From: Myxococcales bacterium
Lineage (GTDB): Bacteria > Myxococcota_A > Polyangia > Polyangiales > Polyangiaceae
Direction: 5' to 3'
Length of the DNA: 62,851 bases
Assembly: GCA_947473045.1 (NCBI GenBank)
Contig: CANJCO010000027.1
Span: forward strand, 1 to 62,851
Shown: positions 4,910-62,851 of the stretch, in pieces
Layout: each line of letters begins with the position of its first letter
Numbering within the stretch: the first letter of the stretch is position 1
The notes under the pieces: generated by a model
Told to the model about the DNA's origin: nothing
Database searches by the model: none
Seen by the model: only the letters and a program-made list of their open reading frames with translations
Position numbers and translations under genes: made by a program

Positions 4910-5287
4910 TACACGTCCCCAGAGCAGAGACCGGCCACCTCACGTGCGCCCGCCGCAGTGAGGCTCATCGCGACGCAGCCCCGGCAATACCATGGAAGCA
5001 AAACACCCATCTTGACCCCTGGCAGGCCGTTGAAGCAGCGGCCTGCGAGCCTTTCATCTCGGGGAGGCATGCACCTCCCCGCCGCGAAAAACGCGGTTTT
5101 TCGGGGGCCCCACCCCACGCAATTGGCTTCGCCAATTCCGATCAGGGTGTTTTTCAAACACCCTGCGCGTGTGCACATACCATGACTGAGCCGTGGGCAC
5201 GGCATTTTGGGTAATCGCGGAGACGAATTGAGTGCACAGTGCAATCTTTGCACGCCGCAAACAATGCGCCATGAGTAGTGTGCTCGC
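4910..5287. other. Divergent intergenic region holding hairpin-element copy A
   Basis: This 378-bp region lies between the leftward DUF342-like gene and the rightward methylase gene. Its middle is the full hairpin element (5022-5165). The remaining 120 bp next to the methylase start is less GC-rich and probably carries its promoter, but I cannot assign -35/-10 boxes with confidence. A six-codon frame (ATG at 5271) ends in an ATGA overlap with the methylase start and could be a leader or chance. Confidence 0.6.
5022..5165 (+). repeat. Hairpin element, full copy A
   Basis: About 144 bp containing, in order: hairpin 1 (GCAGGCCG / CGGCCTGC, 5022-5046), hairpin 2 (CGGGGAGG / CCTCCCCG, 5060-5081), hairpin 3 (CGAAAAAC / GTTTTTCG, 5085-5103), a GGGGCCCCACCCC stretch, hairpin 4 (AATTGGC / GCCAATT, 5121-5137) and hairpin 5 (CAGGGTGTTT / AAACACCCTG, 5143-5165). 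Copies B (same orientation) and C (inverted) have the same order and nearly the same bases. The CTAG ends seen in B and C are not preserved here (CTGG on the left, GCGC on the right). It contains no conserved ORF. Confidence 0.9.
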
Positions 5288-44851: not shown

Positions 44852-45003
44852 CTAGCAGGCCGTTGAAGCAGCGGCCTGCCAGCGTTTCTTCTCGGGGAGG
44901 CAGGCACCTCGTCGCCTCGAAGAACGCGGTTTTTCCCGGGTCCCCACCTCACGCGATTGGCTTCGCCAATCCCTGGCAGGGTGTTGTTCGACCGCCCTGC
45001 TAG
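44852..45003 (+). repeat. Hairpin element, full copy B
   Basis: 152 bp, same orientation as copy A, beginning CTAGCAGGCC (44852) and ending CCCTGCTAG (45003), so the ends form an inverted repeat of about 8 bp. Internal order is as in A: hairpins 1, 2 (partly mispaired), 3 (one change), GGTCCCCACC, hairpin 4 (GATTGGC / GCCAAT) and a decayed hairpin 5. The right CTAG supplies the TAG stop of the glycosyltransferase gene read from the right. Confidence 0.9.
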
Positions 45004-45878
45004 CGCGGGACGAGCTTGGCGACCGCCGCAGGGATCGGGCCCATCCGGCGCAGCGCCGCCAGCAGCGTGGGCCGCGCAAACGCGCCGTCGGCACGCAGCA
45101 TCGCGGTGGCCTGCGCCGCCCGAGCCTGGTCTCCGGCGAGCACGAACTGCCCCGCGGCGTTCCAGACGAAGCGACGAAACGCGCGCGAGCTCCAGCTTCG
45201 CAGCAGCGACAGGTACTCCGGATCGCACTCAAAAAGCGCCTTGTACCGTTCGTAGTCGCTGGCGCTCGGGCCGGTCAGGCGGTCGTCACCCTCAGTGTGG
45301 TAGACGCGAAGCCCCTGTTGCAGGTGGTACCAGCGCGCGCCGGCGTGAATGCGGTGCCAGAGCGTCGACTCGAAGCCCTTGATGCGCTCGTCGAAGCGCC
45401 GCTTGCCGAGGATGCGTGCATGAAAAATGCCCCAGTGCTCGCCGCGCGCATGGTCGATGACCGTGCGCACGTCGATAGGCCCTTCGCGCAGGCCCGTGCC
45501 GGTGAGCTTGCCGGTGCGGGAGTCGACGCAGTTGGTCGATACGGCATCGAGCAGCGGATCGACCTCGCGAACGGCCCGCACGAGGCGCTCGAGCGCGGTT
45601 GGCACGAGCTCGTCGTCGCTGTCGAGGGTGGTGATCCACTCGCCGCGCGCGTGATCGAAGCCCGTATTTTTGGCCGCCGTGACGCCGCGGTTGCGCTCGT
45701 GCGCGACGTAGCGAACCCGAACGTCGGCGTAGCTCGTGACCAGCTCGCGCGTGCCGTCGGTGGAGCCGTCGTCGACGACGATGAGCTCGAAGTCGCCGTG
45801 CGTCTGCGCAAGCACGCTCCCGATCGCGCGCGGCAGCGTGCCGGCGCGCTGGTAGGCGGCCATGACGACGGAAAACAC
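45000..45878 (-). CDS. Family 2 glycosyltransferase
   Basis: 292 aa. GT-A motifs: FSVVMAAYQRAGTLPRAI, VVDDGSTDGTRE, RNRGVTAAKNTGF and the metal-binding DSDD (TLDSDDELV). It transfers a sugar to a surface glycan; donor and acceptor are unknown. The GTG start lies 3 bp after the dnaJ stop, so it is translated from the same mRNA as dnaJ. Its TAG stop is formed by the CTAG end of hairpin element copy B, so the original C-terminus may have been changed by insertion. Confidence 0.88.
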   Translation of the reverse strand: MFSVVMAAYQRAGTLPRAIGSVLAQTHGDFELIVVDDGSTDGTRELVTSYADVRVRYVAHERNRGVTAAKNTGFDHARGEWITTLDSDDELVPTALERLVRAVREVDPLLDAVSTNCVDSRTGKLTGTGLREGPIDVRTVIDHARGEHWGIFHARILGKRRFDERIKGFESTLWHRIHAGARWYHLQQGLRVYHTEGDDRLTGPSASDYERYKALFECDPEYLSLLRSWSSRAFRRFVWNAAGQFVLAGDQARAAQATAMLRADGAFARPTLLAALRRMGPIPAAVAKLVPR

Positions 45879-48903: not shown

Positions 48904-48943
48904 CAGGGTAAAGCTGGCAGGCCGCTGTTCAACGGCCTGCTAG
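48904..48943 (+). repeat. Reduced hairpin element (copy E)
   Basis: A left end CAGGGT like the start of hairpin 5 is joined directly to hairpin 1 (GCAGGCCG...CGGCCTGC, 48917-48940) and a terminal CTAG (48940-48943). The middle hairpins are missing, as in an internally deleted copy. Hairpin 1 here reads TTCAACGGCCTGC at its right arm, as in copy C. It lies between two minus-strand genes. Confidence 0.65.
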
Positions 48944-61521: not shown

Positions 61522-62675
61522 CGCGCCGCTCGCCAATTCGTCCGGGCGGCCCCAGCCTCGCGCCGGCCCGGGTCGCCGCGGTCGCCCTGTGCGCGCTCGC
61601 CCTCGGGGGCGGGTGCGGCAAGCGCGCGAAGGGCCCTGCCTACAAAGTCGTCGACTTTGCGATCGGCGCCCACGCGACCTGCGCAGCGATGCAGGACGGC
61701 AGCGTGCGCTGCTGGGGCGACAACGCCGGAGGGCTGCTGATCGCGGGCGCGCCTGAAGCTGTGGTGGTGCCGACCATCGTAGCTGGGATCGACGACGCGC
61801 AACGGGTCGCCGTCGGCGACGGCTTCGCGTGCGCGTTGCAGCGCGACGGGCATGTGAGCTGCTGGGGTGACAACAGCGCAGGGCAGCTCGGCGACGCGTC
61901 AAGCGCCTCGCGGGCGATGCCGATGCCGGTGCGAGAGCTGGAAGCAGTCGACGCGATCGGCGCAGGCCGCGCACACGCGTGCGCTCACGTCGCGAACAAA
62001 GGCGTATTTTGCTGGGGTGAGGGAGGTCGCGGACAGCTCGGCGACGCCGCTACGACCAGCCGCAGCCTGCCCGTTGCCGTCGCAGGCGGGCTCGCCACGG
62101 CGACGTCGCTCGCGCTCGGCGGCGACACGTCCTGCGCTGTACTCCGCGACACCTCGGCGCGCTGCTGGGGAGACGGATCGCGGGGGCAAATCGGCAACGG
62201 CAAGCGCGTCAGTCCCGCGACGCCGTCGCTGGTCGCGGCGCTCGGCTTCACGCAAATTGCGGTTGGCTCTGAACACGTGTGCGCCCGCATGCAGGACGAG
62301 AGCGCGCTATGCTGGGGCGCCGGTGCGTTCGGGCAGCTCGGCGACGGCGCGGGCGCCGATCAGTCGCAGCCTTCGCGCGTCCGCGACCTCATCGGCGTCA
62401 GCCGCATCGCCGTCGGCGCGGGCCGCTCGTGCGCGCGCATCGGAGACAGCACCCTGCACTGCTGGGGACAGCCGGAGCGCGCGGCCGGTTCCACGTTCGC
62501 GACCGCGGAGCGCGTGCAGGGCATTTACGAAGGCGAGAGCGTGGCGATGGGCGGCAAGACCCGCTGCGCGCAAATGAAAGACGGCTGGCTGCGGTGCTGG
62601 GGCGAAAACGCGCGCGGCGAGCTCGGCGACGGCACCACGGCGACGCGCAGCGTTCCGACACCGATTCGGTACTGA
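61518..62675 (+). CDS. RCC1-repeat lipoprotein
   Basis: 385 aa from GTG overlapping the previous stop. A lipobox (ALALGGGC) predicts lipid anchoring. Seven repeats with the RCC1 signature C-W-G-(D/E)-(N/G)...G-Q/E-L-G-D follow (VRCWGDNAGG, VSCWGDNSAGQLGD, LRCWGENARGELGD), predicting a seven-bladed propeller in the envelope, each blade also carrying a second Cys. RCC1-like proteins are abundant in myxobacteria with unknown roles. It is followed by hairpin element copy C. Confidence 0.9.
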   Translation: MTRRSPIRPGGPSLAPARVAAVALCALALGGGCGKRAKGPAYKVVDFAIGAHATCAAMQDGSVRCWGDNAGGLLIAGAPEAVVVPTIVAGIDDAQRVAVGDGFACALQRDGHVSCWGDNSAGQLGDASSASRAMPMPVRELEAVDAIGAGRAHACAHVANKGVFCWGEGGRGQLGDAATTSRSLPVAVAGGLATATSLALGGDTSCAVLRDTSARCWGDGSRGQIGNGKRVSPATPSLVAALGFTQIAVGSEHVCARMQDESALCWGAGAFGQLGDGAGADQSQPSRVRDLIGVSRIAVGAGRSCARIGDSTLHCWGQPERAAGSTFATAERVQGIYEGESVAMGGKTRCAQMKDGWLRCWGENARGELGDGTTATRSVPTPIRY

Positions 62676-62703
62676 GCCGCGCGGCGCAGCGCAGCTGCGG
62701 GAC

Positions 62704-62851
62704 CTAGCAGGGTGTTGAAAAACACCCTGATAGTAATTGGCGAAGCCAATTGCGTGGGGTGGGGACCCCGAAAAACCGCGTTTTTCGGGGCGGGGAGGTG
62801 CATACCTCCCCGAGATGAAAGGCTAGCAGGCCGTTCTTCAACGGCCTGCTA
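62704..62851 (-). repeat. Hairpin element, full copy C (inverted, reaches the window edge)
   Basis: Read on the minus strand it matches copies A and B end to end: terminal TAGCAGG, hairpin 1 with perfect arms (GCAGGCCGTT / AACGGCCTGC), hairpin 2 (CGGGGAGGT / ACCTCCCCG), hairpin 3 (CCCCGAAAAA / TTTTTCGGGG), hairpin 4 (AATTGGC / GCCAATT) and hairpin 5, then CCTGCTAG. It begins 29 bp after the RCC1 gene stop and the last base visible is the A of the terminal CTA; the G is cut off by the window edge. Confidence 0.95.

Follow-up and report, generated by a model that had tools for sequence, protein, structure and literature searches.

A MITE-like element with a conserved three-hairpin core and exchangeable terminal hairpins in a Myxococcales genome

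The element in the window and in its genome

The window, that is, the whole stretch of DNA that was analysed (62,851 nucleotides), is the entire contig C27 of a Myxococcales genome of 5.15 Mb in 138 contigs. It contains three copies (A, B and C) and two relics of an element that has no gene, is bounded by CAGG...CCTG, is composed of five hairpins and is 141 bp long in its young type. The features are as follows.

5023..5165 (+): copy A, older and decayed; its flanking 4-mers, CTGG and CGCG, do not match
5054-5144: core of copy A, match to model R1 with 93.1 bits
17363..17385 (+): relic, solo left terminal hairpin
44852..44855: left target duplication of copy B, CTAG
44856..44999 (+): copy B, which looks the oldest of the three
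44887-44978: core of copy B, match to model R1 with 61.6 bits
45000..45003: right target duplication of copy B, CTAG, overlapping the stop codon of ORF 45000-45878 (-)
48904..48943 (-): relic composed of a left hairpin (48918-48939), CTAG (48940-48943) and a right-end stump
62704..62707: target duplication of copy C on its right-end side, CTAG
62708..62848 (-): copy C, young type, 141 bp, the same as 29 further full-length sequences of the genome
62849-62851: opposite flank of copy C, TAG only, cut there by the contig end
62824..62851 (-): terminal hairpin 1 of C (left end, CAGGCCGTTGAAGAACGGCCTG, plus flanking TAG/CTA), from folding
62791..62812 (-): core hairpin 2 of C, from folding and covariation
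62766..62790 (-): core hairpin 3 of C (CCCCGAAAAAC/GTTTTTCGGGG), from folding and covariation
62752..62765 (-): unpaired core linker of C (TCCCCACCCCACGC), more conserved than any other unpaired stretch in the family
62735..62751 (-): core hairpin 4 of C (AATTGGC TTC GCCAATT), from folding and covariation
62704..62733 (-): terminal hairpin 5 of C (right end), CTAG duplication included, from folding

All three copies and both reduced copies described in an earlier note on this DNA are thus present in the sequence, but the bounds given there (5022-5165, 44852-45003 and 62704-62851) must be drawn inwards; the outer CTAG is a target duplication and not part of the element. The placement of the copies between genes holds for A and B, which lie between long ORFs, apart from the overlap of the right CTAG of B with a stop codon. 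For the end motif CAGGNNGTTGAANNAC, with up to one mismatch allowed, the window has 6 occurrences, where 0.09 would be expected.

When one strand of copy C was folded as DNA, the five hairpins appeared in the order that had been claimed. The minimum free energy was -52.8 kcal/mol, and that of shuffled sequences (n=200) was -20.2 on average (sd 3.0); the z value was -10.7, and none of the 200 shuffles folded as well. Folded as RNA, the same copy gave a z value of -8.6.

The core word, with up to 3 mismatches, has 111 matches in this genome. All of the 100 matches listed are exact, and 41 of them are no more than 120 bases away from the start of a contig. Since the assembly is interrupted by the repeat, a copy at a contig end may be counted twice; the element accounts for where this genome assembly breaks. 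From the retrieved loci, which are a subset of all places in the genome, we obtained 67 distinct left and 64 distinct right flanks, each of at least 150 bases, and 59 full-length sequences. The latter are of 25 kinds, and 30 of the 59 are identical; the older kinds, for example A and B, differ at scattered places. The top pair of hairpin 2 is T-A in 54 of the 59, C·A in 4 and A·A in 1. In relatives this pair is C-G (GGC..GCC), and A and B are mismatched (GGC..ACC). The commonest subfamily may therefore be one in which the pairing of hairpin 2 was restored, a single case that could also have arisen by chance.

At three loci (L085, C62 24505-24790; L084, C53; L082, C7 75779-75830), copies and solo hairpins stand head to tail with CTAG or TTAG in common, and elements there seem to insert into one another's duplications. 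In a genome of another genus (G006), a piece of the young element lies at the end of contig C52 (L201, 1-117; 99% identity over 117 bases), which reflects either a recent transfer or a contaminating contig.

Ends of the element and an IS5-family insertion sequence

The element has imperfect terminal inverted repeats of 16 bp (CAGGCCGTTGAAGAAC and CAGGGTGTTGAAAAAC), which are alike at 13 of 16 positions. The 4-mers on the left (n=67) were CTAG in 32 flanks, CTAA in 17, TTAG in 9 and others in 9, and those on the right (n=64) were CTAG in 32, CTAA in 14, TTAG in 5, TTAA in 1 and others in 12. That is, YTAR adjoins the element in 58/67 left and 52/64 right flanks. Among the 40 copies that could be read on both sides, the two 4-mers were identical in 21, of which 11 were non-palindromic and direct; in the other 19 they were not identical, being inverted in 1 and different in 18. 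These flanks amount to a 4-bp YTAR target duplication, and duplications of this kind are reported for IS5 in the accessible part of PMC10359306.

The same genome contains an insertion sequence of 1,339 bp with CTAA on each side (L081:1570-2908, contig C83). It has an intact 366-aa frame, which scores 273 bits as an IS5-family transposase (NF033581, cut-off 140). Its ends, CAGGACGTTGAGAAAC and CAGGGTGTTGAAATTC, agree with those of the short element at 13/16 and 14/16 positions, so that they are similar and not identical, and its interior is unrelated to that of the short element. A protein search with its transposase found 1 copy in its own genome and placed the protein in 3/58 relatives. In two of these three relatives (G019 and G043) the related transposases are bounded by CAGGCTGYTGAA ends beside TAG/TAA.

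Given the similar ends and the CTAA duplication of this IS5-family element, the reading that we prefer is that an IS5-type transposase acts in trans and is the likely mover of the short element. The proposal of a MITE-like unit moved in trans is supported by the terminal inverted repeats, the direct duplications, the many near-identical copies and this insertion sequence.

An IS701-family element (NF033540) beside a copy on contig C54 was also considered as the partner and was rejected, as its ends differ (CACTACTTTGACA). This element (L080:1-1540) is inserted in the CTAG adjoining the copy, a target that is common to the two families.

The conserved core and its exchangeable terminal hairpins

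When 183 genomes of the order were searched at the DNA level, 16 gave matches, mainly to the interior alone. In these relatives the stems of the interior are changed on both sides and the outer hairpins are different. We then described the 92-nt core by a covariance model of 27 sequences, with the structure written by inspection. At E <= 1e-5 the model found the core in 25/183 genomes of the order (own genome included) and in 14/83 genera, with counts that are lower bounds, as up to 23 candidates were scored per genome. Twenty-four of the 25 genomes belong to one family, which we take to be Polyangiaceae, and 1 (G056) belongs to another. Of 377 genomes sampled across the phylum, 12 matched the model, two of them (G465 and G405) outside the order. 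The 66 stretches found by a pattern search for hairpin 2 are all from Polyangiaceae, Labilithrix or Myxococcales, and none of the virus contigs searched for the core matched. Thus the further copies that had been asked for exist both in the genome and in relatives. At the gathering score Rfam gave no match in the window or in 5 loci of relatives; at a lax threshold the matches were at chance level, the best having 19.1 bits against a cut-off of 93.

The core shows strong covariation. In an alignment of 85 copies (A3), 93.3% of cells pair (78.8 when shuffled), and two-sided changes occur in 21/24 pairs, amounting to 308 cells against 91.5 in shuffled alignments and 11-59 in slid structures. In an alignment of one copy per genome from 25 genomes (A4), which excludes a cut copy (G006) and G130, 95.6% of cells pair (77.8 when shuffled). 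Two-sided changes occur in 19/24 pairs (9.9 when shuffled) and in 99 cells, against 28.1 shuffled and 6-17 slid, and 0/500 shuffles were as high. Both alignments were fitted to the structure drawn by inspection, and these counts lean towards that structure. By helix, 99% of cells pair in hairpins 2 and 3 and 81% in hairpin 4. RNAalifold on a plain MAFFT alignment found hairpin 2 but missed hairpins 3 and 4, and some of the linker was paired in their place; in that alignment, the rows whose hairpin 3 loop is shorter have the 3' arm of this hairpin shifted out of register.

The compensatory conservation suggested by the earlier note therefore stands across the 25 genomes and does not follow from A, B and C alone. 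Within the window the change in hairpin 2 is one-sided (GGC..ACC in A, GGT..ACC in C), so that its arms do not change together there, and in hairpin 3 copy A simply has one broken pair.

Several cores carry additions. In both L276 (G005) and L282 (G133) an insert containing ATTCGCATTT enlarges the hairpin 3 loop, and in L289 (G001, own genus) there is additional sequence within hairpin 2. In L204 and L280 (G133) the core sits in a longer repeat with flanks in common on both sides. A kissing interaction between the loop of hairpin 3 and the linker, considered by eye, was dropped, since this loop differs in G022-type copies.

In contrast to the core, the left terminal hairpins of these genomes fall, as judged by eye, into five or more types that do not resemble one another:

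Type 1, CAGGCYGNTGAA: G000 (own genome), G006, G001, G005, G124
Type 2, CTRAATGACCGAGCATGATT: G132, G135, G137; a variant in G143
Type 3, CTCAAGAGCTGYC: G022, G115, G116, G163
Type 4, CTAGAACGCCGATCGG: G023, G149
Type 5, AACAAAATGAATGAGGGCC: G151

The left hairpin CTCAGAGCGCGGGA of G056 may be akin to type 3. Within this one genome, a similar core is accompanied by differing left hairpins (L318, L319, L322). Some core copies have no left hairpin. In G022, the sole genome that was checked for paired inverted ends, an end-motif search gave 63 motifs (0 and 1 in controls); among those listed there are 9 elements of 151-152 bp, in which a constant TCA masks any duplication. No partner transposon with CTSAAG ends was found in the listed places by the spacing of end motifs, and single ends were viewed at 5 loci. 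That the inner fold recurs although the outer ends around it are quite different points to a role for the fold as such, and the core may function in cis.

Mechanism, alternatives and relation to known repeats

From the arrangement of the sequences we propose the following explanation. An IS5-type DDE transposase would cut at YTAR, move the MITE in trans and leave the 4-bp duplication. The inner three hairpins and the linker would be an older module, common across Polyangiaceae and sparse beyond, that lies between dissimilar terminal palindromes. This module may act in cis as DNA, its hairpins forming when the strand is exposed or supercoiled, and the folded module may aid mobilisation or amplification whichever transposase reads the ends. 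Only active lineages would feel this pressure, and inserted copies would then decay. Taken as a whole, we consider this account of an IS5-moved MITE with an older DNA module, active in cis between exchangeable ends, to be moderately probable.

A wider reading, which we put forward tentatively, is that the element is modular: one DNA-hairpin core would be inherited across genera and repeatedly refitted with the terminal palindromes of whichever transposon family is active, so that the core would be the lasting selfish unit and would raise its mobility through DNA structure. The C-rich linker gives the other strand the form GGGG-N-GGGG ... GGGG-N-GGGG, which is of quadruplex type. This pattern is found in 67/85 copies, against a mean of 1.15 and a largest value of 4 in 40 shuffles. 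Stems ending in CCCC yield a part of the pattern for free, and we therefore treat the quadruplex as a lead only.

The perfection of the hairpins could also come from mutation alone. That is, template switching would copy one arm onto the other and generate covariation without function. The arms do change together with hairpins 2 and 3 still almost fully paired, there is no strand asymmetry, and the terminal palindromes are near perfect too despite their differing sequences. However, the best conserved parts are the linker CCCCACCCCACGCG (identity 0.90) and the hairpin 2 loop (0.89), both above the helices (0.80), which templated correction does not explain (the value just after hairpin 4 is 0.37), and old copies in the own genome retain mismatches, such as those at the top pair of hairpin 2. 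We think this explanation unlikely.

Another possibility is that the core is a functional RNA, or a terminator or insulator at gene ends, and that mobility merely spreads it. The hairpins are strong, and the insertion sites gave it some support. A coding-like frame, taken here as 60 codons or more with third positions rich in G+C, has its stop codon in the final three bases of the duplication in 19/67 left and 20/64 right flanks, and the same holds for 11/76 YTAR sites of the window on both strands. This excess (39/131 vs 11/76) is about twofold and modest (Fisher p 0.018), and it can stem from YTAR being the target. In other genomes, six copies that lack the left hairpin (L274, L278, L281, L282, L311, L334) start directly after TAG/TAA in one orientation, as judged by eye. 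In the own genome, by contrast, left and right adjacency to stops is equal (p 0.85, orientation being counted with an asymmetric search word), so that insertion is without orientation bias, and a search of 62500-62851 for terminator-like or promoter-like sites found none; the core also belongs to no Rfam family.

RNA helices generally tolerate G·U. In hairpins 2 and 3, G·T/T·G and A·C/C·A were 18 to 18 among about 1,574 cells, and with one copy per genome they were 4 and 3, 467/475 cells being Watson-Crick; that is, G·U and A·C are equally rare. Only in hairpin 4 does G·T exceed A·C, 11 to 6. The helices thus look conserved as DNA and not as RNA. DNA is favoured because of this rarity of G·T, the equal orientations and the lack of a terminator-like site, and of the structured RNA/DNA signal proposed earlier it is the DNA part that we retain. 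We regard an RNA or terminator function as improbable.

A REPIN/RAYT-like element moved single-stranded by a Y1 tyrosine transposase is very improbable indeed: a pair of inverted hairpins at the ends, with a tetranucleotide at their foot, many copies and solo-hairpin relics would fit it, but the direct non-palindromic duplications in 11 copies are expected of DDE and not of Y1 enzymes, and an insertion sequence with a DDE transposase has similar ends.

Returning to the IS5-moved MITE, the element is of an already-known kind: it has terminal inverted repeats and direct duplications, is too short at 141 bp for a transposase, is dispersed in many copies and has ends like those of an autonomous element in its host. 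What is unusual is the conserved structured core with exchangeable ends. Like the bacterial MITEs of IS5-type elements, it has inverted repeats related to an IS of the same genome, a 4-bp YTAR duplication (the IS5 motif in the accessible part of PMC10359306), no coding room and many copies. Unlike them, its ends are complete hairpins, and its interior is conserved, covarying and common to elements with other ends; according to the portion of PMC3119063 available, MITEs usually have ends, not interiors, in common with the transposon.

With REPINs, as described in part of PMC3116915, it shares two inverted hairpins, dispersal and non-autonomy, but it differs in its direct target duplications and DDE-type ends. 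It resembles the PATEs and small mobile repeats of Haloquadratum (PMC3119063, available portion) in that palindromes lie in or close to its ends, it lacks a transposase and it targets other mobile DNA, whereas PATEs are defined there by the lack of inverted repeats and duplications, both of which are present here. ERIC, BOX, RUP, NEMIS and similar repeats are likewise intergenic, of 100-200 bp and of strong secondary structure, and the accessible parts of PMC3733652 and PMC10969869 report no single core between dissimilar terminal repeats for them. In the literature searched, with subscription journals thinly covered, we found no account of the present element.

It is normally the ends that define a non-autonomous element, the interior being of no account; here the interior is conserved and the ends change. 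The covariance model is ready for finding further such elements. Should the core promote mobility, it would act in cis as a DNA structure serving several transposases, and a parasite of this kind could outlive its enzyme.
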